Below, in pieces: positions 9,683-18,753 of a stretch of 64,000 nucleotides of DNA. The stretch spans positions 124,001 to 188,000 of the forward strand of contig NZ_SPQS01000004.1 of NCBI RefSeq assembly GCF_004570865.1, read 5' to 3'. The notes beneath the pieces are model-generated. The model worked only from the letters and a program-made list of their open reading frames with translations. It did no database searches and was not told the origin of the DNA. A program made the translations under genes and the position numbers. Source of the stretch: Bradyrhizobium frederickii (lineage in GTDB: Bacteria; Pseudomonadota; Alphaproteobacteria; Rhizobiales; Xanthobacteraceae). The number at the start of each line of letters is the position of its first letter. Positions within the stretch are counted from its first letter, which is position 1.

Positions 9683-10333
9683 CTAGATCCTCGTCAGACC
9701 GCACGTCGCGGCGAGCCGCACCAGCTGCGCATCCGTGCGTGCGCCGGTCTTGGTCTTGATCAGGTAGTGATAGTTCTGCACCGTCTTCACACTGAGATTG
9801 AGATACGCCGCGATCTGCTCGGTGGTGGCGCCGCCGGCGAACTGGCGCAGGATCTCGATCTCGCGTTCCCCCAACTGATCCAGCACTGAACCCGACGACA
9901 GGCTGTCCTCGGCGAGGACATGCGCGATGTCGTCGCTCATGGCACGCTCGCCGCGGGCGACGGCCCGGATGGCGCCGACCACGGCGGACGGCTCGCTGCT
10001 CTTGGTGACGAAGCCGCTGGCGCCGGCGCCGAAGGCGGCTTTCACCAGCACGGCCTCGTTGTGCATGGTGAAGACGAGGATCCGCGCCCGCGGGCTGCGG
10101 GCGCGGATATTGCGGATCGCCTCCAGCCCGCTCGCGCCCGGCATCGAGATGTCGAGCACCACGACATCGGGGTCATGCGCCTTGAAGGCGCCATAGGCGT
10201 CCGCGGCGTTGTCGGCTTCCGCCACGACATGCAGATCGCCCTGGCTTTCCAGCACGCGCCGGTAGCCTTGCCGGACGATCGGATGGTCGTCGACCAGCAG
10301 CACGGAGATGCCTGTTGCTGCGACCTCGCTCAT
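9683..10333 (-). CDS. NarL/FixJ-type response regulator
   Basis: This 216-residue protein has a receiver domain (VLLVDDHP at residues 11-18, phospho-acceptor Asp61 in VVVLDISMPG) and a C-terminal LuxR-type helix-turn-helix (LGEREIEILRQFAGG through LSVKTVQNYHYLI). It should bind DNA when phosphorylated by the kinase encoded immediately upstream, whose stop codon is seven bases before this start. GAGG lies six bases before the ATG at 10333. The kinase-regulator layout resembles MoxYX of methylotrophs, but no methanol genes are nearby. Confidence 0.92.
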   Translation of the reverse strand: MSEVAATGISVLLVDDHPIVRQGYRRVLESQGDLHVVAEADNAADAYGAFKAHDPDVVVLDISMPGASGLEAIRNIRARSPRARILVFTMHNEAVLVKAAFGAGASGFVTKSSEPSAVVGAIRAVARGERAMSDDIAHVLAEDSLSSGSVLDQLGEREIEILRQFAGGATTEQIAAYLNLSVKTVQNYHYLIKTKTGARTDAQLVRLAATCGLTRI

Positions 10334-10340
10334 GTCGACC

Positions 10341-11711
10341 TCACGCGGCGAGCGGGATGGTGGCGGCGACGCTGAGGCCGCCGCGGGCAGGCAGGATCGA
10401 GAGCGATCCGCCGGCCGCATTGACGCGCTCGCGGATGCCGGTGAGGCCGAAGCCGGCCGACTGTGCGACGCGCGCCGCATCGCCGCCGCCGTCGTCCTCG
10501 ACCCGGATCAGCAGCGCGTTGTCGTCGCCGGTCCGTCGTTCGATGCGCAAGGAAATCTCGCGGGCCGCGCTGTGACGCAGCGCGTTGGTCAGGCATTCCT
10601 GCGCCACGCGATAGGCTGTGGTGGCGGCCGCTCCCCGCACGTCCGTCAGGTCGCCTCTGAGGTCGAGCCGGATCGTCGGCCGCGCCGCGCTCTGCGAGCG
10701 CCAGCTGTCGACGAGATTGACGAGGCTCGCCTCGAGCCCGAGCTCCTCGGGCAGAGGATTGCGCAGGCGCTTCAGCGCATCGCGGAGCGAGGCCATCAGG
10801 TGATGGGTGGCCTGCGAGATCATCCGCGCATCCTGTGCGATGCCGATGTCGGCGTTTCCCTTCTTGCTCGCCGTCTCGATCGTGTTGGCGAAGGCGAGAA
10901 TGGCGGACAGATTCTGCCCGAACTCGTCGTGCAGCTCGCGGGCGAGGGCGCGGCGCTCGTCCTCGCGGATCTCGATCAGGCGCCGCGTCAGCGCGGCGCG
11001 CTGCTCGGTGGCTTCCTCCAGGCGGTCGCCGAGCTCCTCGACGGCGCCGCCGATCATCGCCAGCTCCATCGAGCGGAAGCGCGGCAGTCTGGTGCGATAT
11101 TGTCCGCGCGCCATGCGCTGCAGCGCCGTCACGATCGCGCGCGCCGGGGCCAGCGCATGCGCAATCGCGAGCGATGCCAGCACTGCGATCGCCGCCGCCA
11201 TCAACAGCGCCACATCGATCACGTTGAGGATGTATTCCCAGGCGAGCGAGATCGCGGCGGCGGCATCCGGCGTCGCGACCACGGTGCCGGCGGAAGCGGC
11301 GCGGGGACTGACGGGCCGCACCACCTCGGCGTGGCTGCCGAGGAAAATCGGCACGATCGCGGCGAACCAGCGCGGCGGAGTCTTGCCCAGCCCCTCGCTC
11401 TGGCCGCAGAGCGGCTTCTCGAATGCCGCGGCGGGCTGGAACTCGACGCAGACGCCGGGCGCGATCAGCTTCATGGTCTCCAGGGTGCGCCAGTCCGGAA
11501 CGGGCAGGATATGCTCGCGGGCCCTGCTGCTACGCAACAAAAGCTCGCGCCAATAAAGCGCCTGAAGCGCCTGCGCGACCCGCTGCGCCGAGGCTGCGGT
11601 CGACCGATCGACGCTGCGATAGGCATCGAACGTGGCCCAAATGGTTGCCGCGCCAAGGCACAGGGCCACGATGAGCAGCAGACGGGCGACAAGCTGAAGC
11701 ACGAGGCGCAT
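10341..11711 (-). CDS. DegS/UhpB-type sensor histidine kinase (MoxY-like)
   Basis: This 456-residue membrane kinase has TM1 at about residues 5-25, a periplasmic domain (about 30-155, including a YWRELLLRSSRAREH segment that recalls LapD/MoxY N-terminal domains), TM2 at about 165-188, and a HAMP-like linker. HisKA_3 carries His261 in ARELHDEFGQ, and a HATPase domain follows (AQECLTNALRHSAA N-box, VEDDGGG and GFGLTGIRERV G-boxes). It would phosphorylate the adjacent NarL-type regulator. The start at 11711 has GAGGG seven bases upstream. The stimulus is unknown. It is divergent from the proton-channel cluster across 200 bp. Confidence 0.92.
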   Translation of the reverse strand: MRLVLQLVARLLLIVALCLGAATIWATFDAYRSVDRSTAASAQRVAQALQALYWRELLLRSSRAREHILPVPDWRTLETMKLIAPGVCVEFQPAAAFEKPLCGQSEGLGKTPPRWFAAIVPIFLGSHAEVVRPVSPRAASAGTVVATPDAAAAISLAWEYILNVIDVALLMAAAIAVLASLAIAHALAPARAIVTALQRMARGQYRTRLPRFRSMELAMIGGAVEELGDRLEEATEQRAALTRRLIEIREDERRALARELHDEFGQNLSAILAFANTIETASKKGNADIGIAQDARMISQATHHLMASLRDALKRLRNPLPEELGLEASLVNLVDSWRSQSAARPTIRLDLRGDLTDVRGAAATTAYRVAQECLTNALRHSAAREISLRIERRTGDDNALLIRVEDDGGGDAARVAQSAGFGLTGIRERVNAAGGSLSILPARGGLSVAATIPLAA

Positions 11712-11830
11712 GCGATCACCCTCGACGTTTGATAAGGTCAGCCTAACAACGCCGCCGCGCCTTGCCAATTGCGGGGTTCGGCAGGATTGCAGCTCGGGCA
11801 AATTTCCCAAGCCGGATTGGGCATGGGTCT

Positions 11831-11860
11831 TTGGACCTGATACGGCCGCTTTGATCTAAT
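11831..11860 (+). promoter_or_regulatory. Candidate promoter of the channel-kinase cluster
   Basis: TTGGAC (11831-11836) and TCTAAT (11855-11860) are separated by 18 bp, about 50 bp before the ATG at 11912. This is the best sigma-70-like pair in the 200-bp divergent region. No clear operator is seen. Confidence 0.4.
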
Positions 11861-11911
11861 CGGGTGGAAATCTTGATGGGCCAATCGTTGCGGCCCGAGG
11901 AGCGTTGCAGC

Positions 11912-12694
11912 ATGAGTTCGATGACGATTGGACCGATCGCGCCGGCCGCGACCGACCCGTCCGAGCGCAGCGCGCTCCTGTTCTGGATGATCTTTACCGG
12001 ACTTTCGATCTTCGCCGTCGTGCTGCTGTGGCGGTTCGGCCTGATCCATCTGATGCTGACCTCTGACCGCACCTACATCTCCAGCGTCATCGCGCTGCTC
12101 TACGTCGTCACCTGCGGCCATTGCTTCCTGCGCACGCGGGCGATCGCGCGGGAGGGCGCGGCGGCGCGGCGCTGCCGGGCGGCGCTCGCGGCCCCCGATG
12201 GCGGCAAGGTGCTCGATGCGCGTGCGGCGGCGTTGCCGCGCGGGTTGGTGCGGGATCACATCGAAAGCCTGGTGACCAAGGCCGCGGCGCAGGATTTTCG
12301 CCCGGTGGATCAGACGCTGCTGCTGCGAAATCTCGCCGATCGGCTGCGCGGCTCCAACGGGTTCGGCGCCTTCGTCTCCGACACGCTGATGAAGCTCGGC
12401 CTGCTCGGCACCATCATCGGCTTCATCATCATGCTGGCACCGATCGCGGGGCTCGATGCCGCCGACAAGGTCGCGATGCGCTCCTCGATGGGGCTGATGA
12501 GCGACGGCATGGCGGTCGCGATGTACACGACGCTCGCCGGCCTCGTCGGCTCGATCCTGGTCCGCATCCAGTATTACATGCTGGATGCGGCGACCCAGCG
12601 CGTGTTCTCGGATGCGGTGGTGCTGACCGAGACCTATGTGACGCCGGTGCTCGAGCGCAAGGGCGCGGCAATCAAGGGCGCCACCCCGTCATGA
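11912..12694 (+). CDS. MotA/TolQ/ExbB-family channel protein
   Basis: This 260-residue inner-membrane protein has four predicted helices (about 22-45, 52-70, 157-176, 195-215) and a cytoplasmic loop between helices 2 and 3. The motif TLMKLGLLGTIIGFIIML matches the third helix of TolQ/ExbB/MotA proteins, and VAMYTTLAGLVGSIL matches the fourth. Such proteins form proton channels with an ExbD/TolR/MotB partner. The ATG at 11912 is preferred because GAGGAG lies nine bases upstream. It overlaps the next gene by four bases (ATGA). The usual ExbD/TolR partner is absent and the next gene takes its position. Confidence 0.85.
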   Translation: MSSMTIGPIAPAATDPSERSALLFWMIFTGLSIFAVVLLWRFGLIHLMLTSDRTYISSVIALLYVVTCGHCFLRTRAIAREGAAARRCRAALAAPDGGKVLDARAAALPRGLVRDHIESLVTKAAAQDFRPVDQTLLLRNLADRLRGSNGFGAFVSDTLMKLGLLGTIIGFIIMLAPIAGLDAADKVAMRSSMGLMSDGMAVAMYTTLAGLVGSILVRIQYYMLDAATQRVFSDAVVLTETYVTPVLERKGAAIKGATPS

Positions 12695-13377
12695 TGGATG
12701 ATTTCGGCCTCTATCCGCGCGAGGAGCCGTTCGACCCTCTGGGCGTGATGCTGTTCAAGGCGCTCCAGGTGATCGCGTTCCTGTTCTTCCTGGCGCTGCT
12801 CGCGGTCTCTCCGGATGCCAAGGAGGGCAAGATCGACTCCAAGGCCGAGTTCATGATCACGTTGGACTGGCCGGACAATCACCCCGATGATCTCGACCTG
12901 TTCGTGCAGGATCCCGCCGGCAACATCGCCTGGTACCGCCACCGCGAGGCCGGCTTCCTCACCCTCGACCGCGACGACCGCGGCGGGGCCAACGACTTCA
13001 TCATGGTCGCCGGCAAGAGGGTCGCCTCGCCGATCCGCGAGGAGATCGTCACGGTGCGCGGTGTCCTCGCCGGCGAATACACCGTCAACGTCTCGCATTT
13101 CGTGGCCACGACCGGTGAGCCCGTCACGGCCAACGTGAAGGTGCAGAAGCTCAATCCGACGGCGCAGGTGGTGTTCGACAACAAGTTCACGCTCGACCAC
13201 ACCGGCGACGAGAAGACCGCGGTGCGGTTCCGGATCGATGCCGAAGGCAAGGTCGTCAACGTGGACCAGCGTCCGAAATCGCTGCTGGAGACGTTCCGCA
13301 GCGGCTGGCGCAACGGCGCCGATCTCGATCCGAGGACCGGTGTGAGCAGGAATCCTGTGAGGATACGCCGTGACTGA
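12691..13377 (+). CDS. Membrane-anchored beta-rich protein in ExbD position
   Basis: This 228-residue protein has one N-terminal membrane helix (about residues 22-41) and then a periplasmic beta-rich domain. ITLDWPDNHPDDLDLFVQDP and the following aromatic/glycine run resemble DUF2135-like modules, in which an Asp-Leu-Asp-Leu segment is typical. It is not a recognisable ExbD/TolR, yet it has the same topology and the same genomic position directly after the channel gene, so it may be that channel's periplasmic partner (inference). Start ATG at 12691 overlaps the preceding stop; its stop overlaps the next gene by eight bases, implying translational coupling. Confidence 0.72.
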   Translation: MMDDFGLYPREEPFDPLGVMLFKALQVIAFLFFLALLAVSPDAKEGKIDSKAEFMITLDWPDNHPDDLDLFVQDPAGNIAWYRHREAGFLTLDRDDRGGANDFIMVAGKRVASPIREEIVTVRGVLAGEYTVNVSHFVATTGEPVTANVKVQKLNPTAQVVFDNKFTLDHTGDEKTAVRFRIDAEGKVVNVDQRPKSLLETFRSGWRNGADLDPRTGVSRNPVRIRRD

Positions 13378-13975
13378 TCTGCAGACCGTCATCCTGACGC
13401 TGTCGGTCGCTTACGCCGTGATCGGCGCGCTGCTGCTGGTCGTGCTGGTCTATGCGCGGCTGCACTGGTCGCTGAAGGCGGTCGCGGTGATCGTGACCAG
13501 CGCCTTCTATGTCGTCAGCTTCACCGAGATGCGCGGGCTGCTCGGCTGGGCCAGTTCCGACCGGCTGCCGGCGACCTTCAAGCTGCTGAAGGCCCGCATC
13601 GTCGAGCCGCATTCGCTTCAGGGCGATCGCGGCTCGATCTATCTCTGGGTCGAGCAGCTCGACGAGGACAATCGTCCGAGCGGTATCCCGCGGGCCTTCC
13701 GCGTGCCCTACAACGACAGGCTCGCCGACAAGACCCATGCCGCGGAGAACGAGATCGCACTCGGACATCCGCAAGGCGGCCGCGCCGCCGATTTCGGCGG
13801 CGGCGATGGCAGCCTGATCGACCTGGTCCGCGAATATGTGACGCCCAAGACGATCTTGGAGACGAGCGGCGGCGATTCCTCGACCGGCGAGTTCACCGCC
13901 CCGCCGGCCGGCGCGCAAGGCGCCGTGTTCACCCCGCTGCCGCCGCCCCGAATGCCCCCGAAGGACGAGCAATAG
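13370..13975 (+). CDS. Small membrane protein of the channel-kinase cluster
   Basis: This 201-residue protein of no recognised family has two N-terminal membrane helices (about residues 5-29 and 34-55). A soluble region follows, with a Gly/Asp-rich middle and a proline-rich C-terminus (FTPLPPPRMPPKDEQ). The start lies inside the end of the preceding gene, indicating coupled translation, so it likely works with the channel and the beta-rich protein. Whether the soluble part faces cytoplasm or periplasm cannot be decided with confidence. Confidence 0.7.
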   Translation: MTDLQTVILTLSVAYAVIGALLLVVLVYARLHWSLKAVAVIVTSAFYVVSFTEMRGLLGWASSDRLPATFKLLKARIVEPHSLQGDRGSIYLWVEQLDEDNRPSGIPRAFRVPYNDRLADKTHAAENEIALGHPQGGRAADFGGGDGSLIDLVREYVTPKTILETSGGDSSTGEFTAPPAGAQGAVFTPLPPPRMPPKDEQ

Positions 13976-14031
13976 GCTCGTCACCATCGCCCGCAGGGCG
14001 CTGGCAATCCGTGTGGCGCTGGCGCATCTTC

Positions 14032-14059
14032 TTGACCTCCCTCAATTTGGCCCTATCGG
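14032..14059 (+). promoter_or_regulatory. Candidate internal promoter before phosphatase-kinase pair
   Basis: TTGACC (14032-14037) and TATCGG (14054-14059) are 16 bp apart, in the 115-bp gap that precedes the GTG start at 14091. The last two genes could therefore be expressed separately from the first three. Confidence 0.4.
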
Positions 14060-14090
14060 CCTTCAATAAGAATTCGAGGGTGGAGGGTGT

Positions 14091-14831
14091 GTGCTCCTAG
14101 CTGTCTTTTCGGATATCCATGGCAACCGGCAGGCCTTCGAGGCCTGCCTGAAGGTCGCCCGTGCGAAGGGCGCGGAGCAATTCGTCCTGCTCGGCGATTT
14201 CGTCGGCTATGGCGCCGATCCCGAATGGGTTGTGGATACCGCGATGGAGCTCGTTGCCCAAGGTGCTGTCGCCGTGCGCGGCAATCACGACCAGGCGGTC
14301 AATTCCTCCGCAGAGACGATGAACGCCGAGGCGCAGGTCGCGATCGAATGGACCCGTGGCCGGCTTGACACCGCGCAGCGGCGGTTTCTGACCGAATTGC
14401 CGATGCTGGTCGAGGACGGCGATCGGCTCTTCGTGCATTCGGAAGCCTCACACCCCCAGCGCTGGCACTATGTCCGCTCGACGGTGGAGGCCGCCAAGAG
14501 CCTGATCGCGACACCGGCCCATGTCACGTTCTGCGGCCATGTCCATCGTCCCGCGCTCTATTCGATGTCGGTGACGGCAAAGATGACGAGCTTCGTGCCG
14601 AAGACCGACGTCCCGGTGCAGCTCTTGCGCGGACGGCAATGGCTCGCCGTGCTCGGCTCGGTCGGCCAGCCCCGCGACGGCGATCCGTCGGCAGCTTTCG
14701 TCTTGTTCGACACCGAATCGTGCCAGATCACCTATTGCCGCGCGCCCTATGACGTCGCGACCGCGGCGGGCAGAATTCGCGACAACGGTCTGCCGCATTG
14801 GCTCGCCGACCGGCTCTCGCAGGGGCGCTGA
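14091..14831 (+). CDS. Calcineurin-like metallophosphoesterase
   Basis: This 246-residue two-metal phosphoesterase carries the expected motif set in order: SDIHGN (residues 7-12), GDFVGYGADP (35-44), GNHD, and GHVHRP. The YfcE/ApaH-like layout does not identify its substrate, which could be a phosphoprotein, a nucleotide or a phosphodiester. It has no signal peptide, so it is cytoplasmic. The start is GTG at 14091 after GAGGGTGGAGGG. The kinase gene begins five bases after its stop, so an antagonistic kinase-phosphatase pair is a reasonable inference. Confidence 0.88.
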   Translation: MLLAVFSDIHGNRQAFEACLKVARAKGAEQFVLLGDFVGYGADPEWVVDTAMELVAQGAVAVRGNHDQAVNSSAETMNAEAQVAIEWTRGRLDTAQRRFLTELPMLVEDGDRLFVHSEASHPQRWHYVRSTVEAAKSLIATPAHVTFCGHVHRPALYSMSVTAKMTSFVPKTDVPVQLLRGRQWLAVLGSVGQPRDGDPSAAFVLFDTESCQITYCRAPYDVATAAGRIRDNGLPHWLADRLSQGR

Positions 14832-14836
14832 AGGCA

Positions 14837-16288
14837 ATGCCGAAGCCTCTGGTCAAATCCGGCGCGGTGATCGATGGCTACACCATCGGCGAACGCGTTC
14901 ATGCCGGCGGCATGGCGACGCTGTGGACCGTCACCCATCCCGGCATCGACGTGCCGCTGCTGATGAAGATCCCGCGGGTCTCGGAGGGCGAGGACCCCGC
15001 CGCGATCGTCTCCTTCGAGATGGAGATGATGATCCTGCCGCGGCTCGCGGGCCCGCACGTCCCCACCTGCTTCGGCACCGGCGATTTCGCGCACCAGGCC
15101 TATGTCGTGATCGAGCGCATCGGTGGCGCCACGCTCTATAAGCGGCTGCCCGAGCTGCCGTTGCCCTATGACGAAGCGCGGCAGCTCGTCGCCAGGATCG
15201 CGAGCGCGCTGGCCGATCTACACCGGCAGAACGTGATCCATCACGACATCAAGCCGAGCAGCATCATGTTCCGCGAGAGCGGCGAGGCCGTGCTGATTGA
15301 TTACGGCCTGTCGCATCACAATTACCTGCCGGATCTGTTGCAGGCGGAGTTCCGCCTGCCTTACGGCACTGCGCCCTACATGGCACCCGAGCGGCTGTCG
15401 GGCGTGCGCGACGATCCCCGCAGCGACCTGTTTTCGCTCGGCGTGCTGCTGTATTTCTTCACCACAGGCGAGCGGCCGTTCGGCGAGGGCGAGACGCTGC
15501 GCGCGATGCGGCGCCGGCTGTGGCGCGATCCGCATCCGCCGCGCAAGCTCTGCCCCGACTATCCGCCCTGGCTCCAGGAGGTGGTGCTGCGGTGTCTCGA
15601 GATCGAACCGGTGTGGCGCTATCCGACGGCGTCCCAGCTCGCCTTCGATCTTACCCATCCCGACCAGGTCAAGCTCACCACGCGCTCGGAGCGGGTCAAA
15701 CGCGACCCGCTCAGCGTCGCCTGGCGTCGCCGCTTCAATCTGGGCGTCATGGCGCCGCACGCGAAATCGGATGTCGCCGCCCAGATCGCATCGAGCCCGA
15801 TTCTTGCTGTCGCGCTCGACACGGTCGAAGGCGCACCGGAGCTCAACGAGGCGCTGCGCGTGACCACCGAGCGCATCCTCGCCACCCTGCCGTCGGCGCG
15901 GCTCGCCTGCGTCAACGTGCTCAAGCTGAGCCGGATCGCGGTCGACCGTACCTTGGACGAGCAGGGGTCCAACAAGCATATCGACCGCCTGGTCGCGCTC
16001 CGGCATTGGGCGATGCCGCTCAAATTGGATGAGAGCCGGCTGACGGCTCATGTGCTGGAGGCGGTTGATCCCGCCGCCGCGATCCTGGAATTCGCCGAGG
16101 TCAACCAGGTCGACCACGTCATCATCGGAGCGCGGCAAGACTCATTCAGGCGCACGCTGCTCGGCAGCGTATCGGCCAAGGTCGCTGCGGAAGCCAGGTG
16201 CACCGTCACGGTGGTGCGGCCGCCGCGGATGGCTGGCGACGCCGGCGAGTCCGATGCCGGCGAAGCACCGGGCGAAGCACCGGCATAG
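14837..16288 (+). CDS. Ser/Thr protein kinase fused to universal stress protein domain
   Basis: This 483-residue cytoplasmic fusion has a eukaryotic-type kinase domain (about residues 12-280). Lys44 in LLMKIP, catalytic Asp137 in IHHDIKPSS, Asp155 in IDYG (DFG equivalent) and APYMAPERLSG are visible. The Asn that normally follows the catalytic loop by five residues is Ser142, which is unusual. A UspA-like domain (about 315-470) ends in DHVIIGARQDSF and GSVSAKVAAEARCTVTVVRP, the nucleotide-binding pattern of Usp proteins. It likely couples a stress or nucleotide signal to phosphorylation within this cluster. It starts five bases after the phosphatase gene. Confidence 0.9.
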   Translation: MPKPLVKSGAVIDGYTIGERVHAGGMATLWTVTHPGIDVPLLMKIPRVSEGEDPAAIVSFEMEMMILPRLAGPHVPTCFGTGDFAHQAYVVIERIGGATLYKRLPELPLPYDEARQLVARIASALADLHRQNVIHHDIKPSSIMFRESGEAVLIDYGLSHHNYLPDLLQAEFRLPYGTAPYMAPERLSGVRDDPRSDLFSLGVLLYFFTTGERPFGEGETLRAMRRRLWRDPHPPRKLCPDYPPWLQEVVLRCLEIEPVWRYPTASQLAFDLTHPDQVKLTTRSERVKRDPLSVAWRRRFNLGVMAPHAKSDVAAQIASSPILAVALDTVEGAPELNEALRVTTERILATLPSARLACVNVLKLSRIAVDRTLDEQGSNKHIDRLVALRHWAMPLKLDESRLTAHVLEAVDPAAAILEFAEVNQVDHVIIGARQDSFRRTLLGSVSAKVAAEARCTVTVVRPPRMAGDAGESDAGEAPGEAPA

Positions 16289-17916: not shown

Positions 17917-17970
17917 GACATCGCCTGCAGAACATTGGCCGCGGCATGCCGCATCGGTTGGAGTTGTGCA

Positions 17971-18753
17971 ATGTTGTTTGCCCTTGGGGCCGTCGGGGCC
18001 GTATCGAGCGCGCTCGATGCGATTCAGTCGCTGACAAACTCGAAATCGTCCTCCTCGACGCATAAGACGGGATCGGCGCAGAGCGCGACCAATCCGTTCG
18101 CGATCGACAGCGGTAGCAGCAACACGACCAGCGGCGCGACCTCGTCGGTCAACTCGGGCAATTGCGCGCAGATTTCGCCGGAAACGATGAGCGCGCTGAT
18201 CGCCGCGCAGAGCCAATCGTCCGACGGCAGCAGCGTGGCGACCTCGTCGACCTCGACGTCGAAAGGCCGGGATGCTGCGCTCAAGGATCTGTTCTCGCAG
18301 ATCGATGCGGATGGCGACGGCAGCATCACCAGGTCCGAGTTCGAGGACGCGCTGGGCGCAGGCGGGACCAACCTCGCGCAGGCCGACGACGTGTTCTCCA
18401 AGCTGGATGCGAACTCCGACGGCGACGTCAGTCTCGACGAGATGTCGAAGGCCCTGAAGAGCGGTCACCACGGCCACCATCACGCGCAAGGTGCCGGCGG
18501 CTCGGGCGATGGATCGGATTCCTCGTCGAAGTCCGGCGGCGGATCGACCTCGACGACGACGACCGCTGCCGACGGCTCGACCACCACCACCGTCACCTAT
18601 GCCGACGGCTTCAAGATGTCGACAACGGTGCCGGGCGCCTCCAGCGCCCGCAATTCGGCCTCTGATCTGTTCGCGCAGTTGATGCAGCAGCAAGGCGGCC
18701 AGGGCCAGGGCTCTTCGGCGGCGGCCGGTTCGTCGATGTCGATGAGCGTCTGA
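17971..18753 (+). CDS. EF-hand calcium-binding protein
   Basis: This 260-residue Ser/Thr/Gly-rich protein has two canonical EF-hand loops: DADGDGSITRSE (residues 112-123) and DANSDGDVSLDE (146-157). All calcium ligand positions are filled in both. The N-terminus has a short hydrophobic stretch (MLFALGAVGAVSSAL) that may be a weak export or anchoring signal. The remainder is low complexity. The ATG at 17971 has GGAG eight bases upstream. A perfect RpoN promoter precedes it, so it is probably controlled by a sigma-54 activator (nitrogen, C4-dicarboxylate or motility regulators are known examples). Role unknown. Confidence 0.85.
   Translation: MLFALGAVGAVSSALDAIQSLTNSKSSSSTHKTGSAQSATNPFAIDSGSSNTTSGATSSVNSGNCAQISPETMSALIAAQSQSSDGSSVATSSTSTSKGRDAALKDLFSQIDADGDGSITRSEFEDALGAGGTNLAQADDVFSKLDANSDGDVSLDEMSKALKSGHHGHHHAQGAGGSGDGSDSSSKSGGGSTSTTTTAADGSTTTTVTYADGFKMSTTVPGASSARNSASDLFAQLMQQQGGQGQGSSAAAGSSMSMSV

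Follow-up and report, generated by a model that had tools for sequence, protein, structure and literature searches.

Five genes packed on one strand of a Bradyrhizobium frederickii contig raise the question of whether they act together as a single signalling system or belong to separate modules. They lie within a 64,000-nucleotide stretch (contig NZ_SPQS01000004.1, positions 124,001 to 188,000), called the window below, and a preliminary description had taken them for one unit that could couple proton-motive force or envelope state to reversible phosphorylation. We find it reasonably probable that the first three genes (A, B and C) encode a single complex in the inner membrane, related in type to the 5:2 ion motors, and that the last two (D and E) are independent of it.

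11864..12694, + strand: gene A, MotA/TolQ/ExbB-type channel subunit (Pfam MotA_ExbB and alignment of relatives)
12691..13377, + strand: gene B, single membrane helix plus DUF2135/TerD-like beta-sandwich, 228 amino acids (aa)
13370..13975, + strand: gene C, helix pair read as membrane-spanning plus small mixed domain
11864-13975, + strand: A-B-C trio, the membrane module of the locus
14091..14831, + strand: gene D, calcineurin-like phosphoesterase, in a module separate from the trio
14837..16288, + strand: gene E, Ser/Thr kinase-Usp fusion, in the same separate module

A conserved trio and a separate kinase-phosphatase pair

All five + strand frames were found as first described, with overlaps of 4 base pairs (bp) between A and B and of 8 bp between B and C and a gap of 5 bp between D and E; the tight packing holds for these three junctions, but a gap of 115 bp between C and D had gone unmentioned. 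Pfam searches also agreed with the description of D as a calcineurin-like phosphatase (Metallophos_2, expectation value [E-value] 4.7e-20) and of gene E as a Ser/Thr kinase joined to a universal stress domain (Pkinase, 3.7e-28; Usp, 1e-13), and they returned no family above the cut-off for B or C.

The arrangement seen within the genus would favour a single signalling system linking proton-motive force or envelope state to phosphorylation. In the best 80 of 175 named loci found, A-B-C was present in every case (A being cut by a contig end in two) and D-E came next in 77, the other three stopping at contig ends. Against such a system, the C-D gap exceeds 1 kilobase (kb) in 8 of these 77 loci and is 115 bp in the window itself. 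Moreover, gene E was recognised at an E-value of 1e-60 in six of 16 chosen B-bearing genomes, all six of the window genus, and had no match at this threshold in G194 and G171, two genomes of the same genus in which D was looked at only beside the trio. In G216, gene E lies at 4.65 megabases (Mb) with D beside it and B lies at 2.06 Mb, placing D-E about 2.6 Mb from A-B-C. At the loci examined outside the genus, no D-E pair was seen next to A-B-C, D having had no genome-wide search, and it is A-B-C alone that persists there; the five-gene order is therefore not what is kept beyond Bradyrhizobium. The scattering of genes among relatives, which the preliminary description had named as the observation that would count against it, is what we found for D-E, while A-B-C stays together.

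Altogether, D-E is an independent kinase-phosphatase pair and not part of the trio. Since D-E is unlinked from the trio in relatives, a coupling of proton-motive force to the kinase is not supported; the five-gene signalling unit was set aside on linkage, and we regard this largely refuted reading as hardly credible.

All of these 80 loci were titled Bradyrhizobium except L055 (JAUEPE010000008.1, titled Frankia sp. RB7), which holds a Bradyrhizobium-type five-gene locus with a B protein 92% identical, so that this genome is probably mislabelled or contaminated. The PADLOC match of gene E to PD-T4-6 (E-value 3.8e-51) is a match of the kinase domain and was not counted as a defence call.

The trio in bacteria and in phages

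Homology searches showed the trio to be kept by Alphaproteobacteria of scattered lineages, by a single family from another class and by many phages. B was found in 101 of the 117 genomes of the genus, in 31 of 297 genomes of the order (14 of 122 genera), in 48 of 337 sampled from the class (36 of 253 genera) and in 15 of 349 sampled from the phylum, where the three strong matches belong to one family of another class. Among 65 bacterial loci chosen from these genome hits (including three from Bradyrhizobium, one from an Azospirillum plasmid and the window), 64 had a recognisable A next to B and 62 a recognisable C, some of the loci having themselves supplied sequences to the profiles; the same A-B-C order was already visible with profiles built from Hyphomicrobiales only. 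Two of the three incomplete loci lie near or at contig ends (L185, L189), and in the third (L209) a C-like gene separates A from B. None of the genes around the 65 loci proved to be a constant fourth partner.

A similar picture emerged from phages. A tblastn search with B against phage records returned 27 records, all of Rhizobium or Sinorhizobium phages, and in the 20 of them that were listed the gene is annotated as 'hypothetical protein' (it is p040 in phage 16-3). In RHph_N34 and RHph_N3_13, B is preceded by a compact A of 148 and 141 aa, respectively, and followed by a two-helix protein of 144 and 153 aa; the bacterial profiles recognised A (E-values 4e-13 and 4e-14) and B (1e-53 and 4e-50), and C was missed by them and recognised by iterated profiles only. 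The three genes are adjacent in RHph_I1_18, and phage 16-3 (p038, p040, p042) and NV1.1.1 carry one extra gene in each gap, one of those in NV1.1.1 being a putative GIY-YIG-type endonuclease. The trio was thus present in all five named phages looked at, two of them with inserted genes.

Scans of IMG/VR yielded 26 loci from 192 candidate stretches and a further 80 kept of 212, which gave 108 viral loci when the 106 (L241 and L313 being on the same contig) were joined by two named phages. The trio was recognised in 105 of the 108; L243 and L274 are cut by contig ends, and L293 has no recognised C. Profiles from bacteria only found A in 107 and C in 96, and iteration raised C to 106. With profiles from 18-20 Hyphomicrobiales proteins, the first 26 IMG/VR loci had already given B at E-values of 4e-45 to 1e-54, together with A in all 26 and C in 25. 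Considering the 82 viral trios with distinct B, A lies directly 5' of B in 80 and C directly 3' in 81, with no constant fourth gene among them (the largest other cluster covers 12 loci). Representatives of the neighbour clusters include a terminase (8 loci), a primase, a late sigma factor, an SbcC/D-like protein and a helicase; the contigs with such neighbours, at least, are thus tailed-phage genomes. Ten of the 80 kept contigs exceed 150 kb. On quick trees, the phage and bacterium labels needed three changes, with only 47 of 145 and 40 of 144 inner branches starred. The third gene, proposed at the outset to belong with the channel and the anchored protein, does indeed accompany them in most loci of both kinds.

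Several recurrent neighbours were noted. A Sel1-repeat gene (one representative tried) stands directly 5' of A in 10 bacterial loci (L119, L120, L122-L129), and a family of one-helix proteins stands behind C in nine (L176-L180, L182, L186, L195, L196; two outside the class), one of the two members tried being DUF3108-like below the cut-off. Like the two-component system described below, both recur in some lineages only. In viral loci, a transporter gene, whose single representative tried is of the SbmA/BacA family, is found near the trio in 8 of 82, including L220:7098-8075, two or three (once six) genes after B; a membrane protein that may be a Na/phosphate-cotransporter fragment lies directly 3' of C in L224, L225:7085-7567 and L235:7123-7605; and a gene for PycTM, a Pycsar effector, lies just 5' of the trio at L240:4663-5379 (Pfam E-value 3.6e-21). 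Phage RHph_I1_18 has a metallophosphoesterase gene about 1.3 kb 5' of its trio (L326:4464-5081), a loose parallel to D, and phage 16-3 (L324) has kinase-like and phosphatase-like genes elsewhere in its genome.

Two further bacterial cases were recorded. L193 and L194, from genomes of about 1 Mb or less (G450, G319), have an A of compact, phage-like length (173-176 aa) and gave the top scores of the 65 bacterial loci with iterated profiles; four genomes of that genus matched. Azospirillum megaplasmids (L217 and six other records) hold two weak B matches each, the best place having 29.1-29.6% identity, and the one place that was read, L217, has a full trio.

Gene A and a putative polar ring

A scored 35.5 bits against MotA_ExbB (E-value 9.6e-9; cut-off 22.9 bits) and is therefore a member of this family, as expected of the TolQ/ExbB-like channel first proposed. 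Four of the five phage A proteins tried also exceeded the cut-off, one of them barely, and a search by sequence against solved structures reached TolQ chains only at an E-value of 0.012. A has four hydrophobic stretches as judged by eye. Its start is likelier to be the ATG at 11912 than the GTG at 11864, because an MSSM start is common to the relative L081. The window assembly has six MotA_ExbB proteins over the cut-off, of which A scores lowest, making A one among several paralogues. Two positions in its last two helices stood out in the alignment.

12410..12412, + strand: A Thr183 (GLLGT), putative polar-ring residue
12527..12532, + strand: A Thr222-Thr223 (AMYTTLAGL), putative polar-ring residues

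Thr183 is conserved in 84 of 85 phage rows, 61 of 64 other bacterial rows and 75 of 77 Bradyrhizobium-type rows, and Thr223 in 83 of 85, 64 of 64 and 75 of 77, respectively; Thr222 is more variable than Thr223. A thus has a near-invariant candidate Thr ring in its last two helices, and from their position we infer that Thr183 and Thr223 are counterparts of ExbB Thr148 and Thr181.

Phage A proteins are 134-244 aa long (below 180 aa in 94 of 105), and this compactness, together with the conserved channel residues, would suit an ion leak, in which the channel would dissipate the membrane potential late in infection in a holin-like manner, bacterial copies being tamed remnants. A large conserved beta domain and C would both be superfluous for a leak, however; in some loci the trio is surrounded by genes for DNA replication and late sigma factors; and no lysis gene is annotated in the five annotated phage stretches, although most genes there are 'hypothetical' or only numbered. 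We consider such a leak very unlikely.

An anchored beta-sandwich protein distinct from ExbD/TolR

12850..13266, + strand: soluble beta domain of B, residues 54-192; conserved motifs W..DD-L/I-D..DP-G and LDRDD-G (AlphaFold model)

B is not an ordinary ExbD/TolR protein, in agreement with the preliminary description: Pfam ExbD had no match to the window B at an E-value of 10 and was absent among the matches listed for 79 relatives (25 of 35 families), so that this candidate identity was ruled out. By sequence, B had no significant match among solved structures. We then modelled B and C each as single chains. The B model (79-row alignment; mean predicted local distance difference test score [pLDDT] 85) shows a helix at residues 16-38 followed by a sandwich at 54-192. 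A structural comparison ranked a TerD-like chain first (3ibz, Z 11.6, root-mean-square deviation 4.1, 138 residues), followed by 2qng (titled unknown function SAV2460, Z 10.1; presumably also of the TerD family) and by the TerD homologue 2qz7 (Z 10.0), these three spanning 128-138 residues. The predicted model of the B domain therefore resembles TerD in fold.

Sequence comparisons pointed to another family. The window B matches neither TerD nor DUF2135 in Pfam, and DUF2135 is the family most often, if weakly, matched by its relatives (8 of 79, best E-value 0.0039). In a profile comparison with hhalign, DUF2135 was reached with a probability of 81% and a pairwise E-value of 1.2e-5, using five DUF2135 rows (of 10 loci) that had been selected by motif, which favours a match, and with no shuffled control. 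The likeness to DUF2135 proposed in the preliminary description thus has some support from these relatives and profiles, but none from a Pfam match of the window protein itself. Overall, the domain resembles DUF2135 in sequence, more closely than it resembles TerD, and TerD in its predicted fold.

The acidic motifs are invariant in B relatives and would be compatible with a putative metal site. TerD of Klebsiella pneumoniae is described as a Ca2+-binding protein in PMC8123226, with reference to Pan et al. 2011. A scan for the TerD family gave no match in 60 relatives, the window genome among them, and matches in 36 of 200 genomes sampled from the phylum. According to a preprint, TerD genes occur in huge gut phages; its consulted sections make no mention of a motor anchor (PMC12363816).

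When compared with BFVD, the B model also matched parts of larger uncharacterised proteins of Cellulophaga phage phi4:1, Campylobacter phage CP21 and one further phage (E-values 1.4e-5 to 5.1e-4; entries, in alphabetical order, A0A292GJA3_1, I7JBZ3 and S0A5K4), which suggests that the sandwich may occur in phages outside the trio. A weak PHROGs match to phrog_1735 (E-value 0.002-0.006) is in line with these matches; at an E-value of 0.001, PHROGs returned no family when tried with a single A, two B proteins and a single C from phages.

An Asp-to-Val exchange in the membrane helix of the window lineage

12736..12804, + strand: B helix, residues 16-38, read as membrane-spanning (AlphaFold model)
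12745..12747, + strand: B Val19, Asp in phage and most other bacterial homologues (alignment)
12757..12759, + strand: B Lys23, Asn in most Asp-bearing homologues, pairing with Val19 (alignment)

In ExbBD and TolQR, ExbD Asp25 and ExbB Thr148/Thr181 are called essential (PMC12905483), and in ZorAB, a 5:2 motor of the same superfamily, the ZorB Asp that faces a ring of ZorA Ser/Thr residues is called critical (PMC11890865). A corresponding Asp is present in the B helix of all 85 distinct phage rows, mostly within F-x-D-L-L-F-N, and of 53 of 65 bacterial rows. The twelve bacterial rows that lack it are the ten of the window clade, L181 and L187; the ten and L181 all have Val with Lys four residues later, and L187 has Ala at the Asp position with Asn retained. 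Among further Bradyrhizobium-type rows, Val and Lys occur in 75 of 75 and Asp in none. On a tree built without the helix, the loss of Asp amounts to three changes, and no supported group has two of those rows (L181, L187). Weak matches to MotB_plug were obtained for 2 of 79 B proteins (best E-value 9.5e-4).

The membrane Asp of 5:2-motor B subunits is thus kept by most relatives and replaced by Val19 in the window protein, a placement that comes from an ungapped helix alignment, another alignment possibly putting Asp15 or a neighbour under the conserved Asp. By analogy, we infer that Asp-type trios are ion-driven. Given the exchanges of Asp for Val and of Asn for Lys, the window copy probably no longer carries ions through the Val19 position, unless Asp15, one turn earlier, serves instead.

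The kinship with ZorAB also bears on the idea that the trio is a device of phage-bacteria conflict, which would sense infecting phage through the outer domain of B in a Zorya-like manner and answer through the channel, providing superinfection exclusion in phages and immunity in bacteria. Consistent with it, the trio is placed between the immX region and attP/int in the temperate phage 16-3, one viral contig has the PycTM gene beside its trio, and a part of ter genes in inhibiting phages and in resistance to colicins has been reported (PMC8123226). Other observations argue against it: no fourth gene recurs in most of the 82 viral trios, whose neighbours were not scanned one by one for families of defence genes; A is too short for a ZorA-type tail and its PADLOC matches to ZorA are weak and partial (E-values of 1.5e-6 or weaker, fewer than 90 residues); B has no OmpA-like match; and the presence of B in most genomes of the genus makes the trio more core-like than a variable immunity locus. 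We regard a conflict device as rather unlikely.

Gene C and a candidate regulator

The C model (mean pLDDT 77) consists of two helices and a small domain. C relatives gave a few weak Pfam matches in some members, the best being TrAA12 (E-value 3.7e-7) in 5 of 60, and TonB and TolA were absent among the matches listed. A force arm of the TonB/TolA type, as found in ExbBD/TolQR, is therefore missing from the trio, which counts against a TolQR/ExbBD-like role of the trio in energising some envelope process not yet described; in that reading, phages would have taken up the trio as an auxiliary set supporting the host envelope. The loss of Asp in the window clade speaks against such a role as well. 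In its favour are the core-like distribution in the genus, the envelope-type Sel1-repeat and DUF3108-like neighbours, the SbmA/BacA-type transporter of some viral loci, and the reading of a single ExbB in chronic Lentisphaerae phages as auxiliary (PMC11361711). An energiser of this kind is a real possibility, one that we would stop short of calling probable.

9683..11810, - strand: divergent two-component system, possible regulator, with a NarL-type response regulator (9683-10480) and a HisKA_3 sensor kinase (10341-11810) (Pfam)

The HisKA_3 kinase adjoins A in 8 of the 10 window-clade loci, three of them outside the genus (L113, L114, L115), and a NarL-type regulator was called behind the kinase in five of those eight. 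This pair reaches further beside A than D-E does and is therefore a candidate; the kinase and its regulator could possibly control the trio. On the other side of the locus, 1.6 kb 3' of gene E, the frame 17935-18753 contains two putative EF-hand-like motifs, DADGDGSITRSEF and DANSDGDVSLDEM.

A possible mechanism and what weighs on it

Motors of the ion-driven 5:2 type serve flagella, the import of nutrients, the upkeep of the outer membrane, gliding and, in one case, defence against phages. If A-B-C is one inner-membrane complex of this type, A would form a pentamer and B a dimer, as in relatives, with C as a two-helix partner. The B domain would be periplasmic and would bind Ca2+ or an envelope ligand; ion flow past the B Asp could then move or release this domain, or ligand binding could open the channel. 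During infection, phages would use the trio to alter the energised envelope of the host. In the window lineage, the Asp-to-Val exchange would leave a gated or structural sensor complex, or Asp15 would be used instead.

A number of results weigh against this reading. Foldseek alone gave zero matches of the B model to the PDB at an E-value of 0.001, and in the ranking that placed TerD first, differently titled chains follow just below (Z 9.5 and 9.2) before the next falls to 6.4. A TerD profile of 59 frames was matched by B with an hhalign probability of 1% and an E-value of 0.046 (three column-shuffled control profiles gave 0.37-0.81), so that B does not belong to TerD by sequence. C has no recognised fold or family. 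The window B has no membrane Asp, and ion driving of the window copy is not supported. Finally, the periplasmic side of the B domain is suggested by analogy and by the basic N-termini of some relatives, and the window N-terminus is acidic.

Going further, we tentatively propose that the channel, the TerD/DUF2135-headed anchor and the two-helix partner make up a class of ion-motor-like complexes not described before, encoded by a mobile three-gene cassette of tailed phages, directed against competing phages or remodelling the energised envelope, which bacteria would have adopted; the Bradyrhizobium copy might then be a non-conducting 'pseudo-motor' sensor that arose through the Asp-to-Val and Asn-to-Lys exchanges. 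If true, this would be a new viral way to act on membrane energy, from a trio that is whole in about 100 viral contigs and in well-studied Rhizobium phages; phage 16-3 in Sinorhizobium would be a tractable model, and the natural exchange of Asp for Val bears directly on whether a complex of this kind could function without ion flow.

Comparison with known systems

As the preliminary description had supposed, no described system of this composition was found in the open-licence literature. A survey of MotAB/ExbBD-type proteins describes a common Exb/Tol scaffold that carries various domains of unknown function and, in the sections consulted, does not name such a trio (PMC12505986). From that first description, the channel with a non-ExbD anchored beta-rich protein and the third gene stood, but the five-gene unit did not.

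TerY-type kinase/phosphatase triads resemble the window in that it has a kinase and a phosphatase near a TerD-like protein; they differ in that D-E is unlinked to the trio in relatives and the window phosphatase is calcineurin-like. TerD itself is the best fold match of the B domain (Z 10 to 11.6), and a W..D-x-D stretch aligned in the profile comparison, yet the trio B lacks a significant sequence-profile match and, unlike B, TerD is not known to have a membrane helix. For DUF2135, which we take to be the family of E. coli YfaP, the tentative profile similarity to B extends over 76 columns that take in the W..DIDLxV..P.G and PGxY motifs; under the Pfam cut-off B does not qualify as a member, and the five DUF2135 proteins compared have 345-421 aa.

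With ZorAB of Zorya, the trio shares the superfamily, a two-protein core and a link to phages. In contrast, the window A, of at most 276 aa, leaves no room for the long cytoplasmic tail of ZorA; the OmpA-like domain of ZorB was matched neither in the window B nor in the listed families of its relatives, PADLOC having no family for B. Zorya identity was ruled out on these two features. ZorC, ZorD and ZorE were not noticed beside the 82 viral trios and 65 bacterial loci, whose neighbours were not each scanned.

With ExbBD/TolQR, the trio shares an A of the MotA/TolQ/ExbB family and an adjacent one-helix B that carries a membrane Asp in most homologues. It differs by a DUF2135/TerD-like sandwich as the head of B, with no Pfam ExbD, by the two-helix C in place of TonB/TolA, by its occurrence in phages as well, and by Val in place of Asp in the window clade. 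We read A-B-C as a predicted new branch within the family of 5:2 ion motors, one whose head is of the TerD/DUF2135 type and which phages and bacteria have in common.

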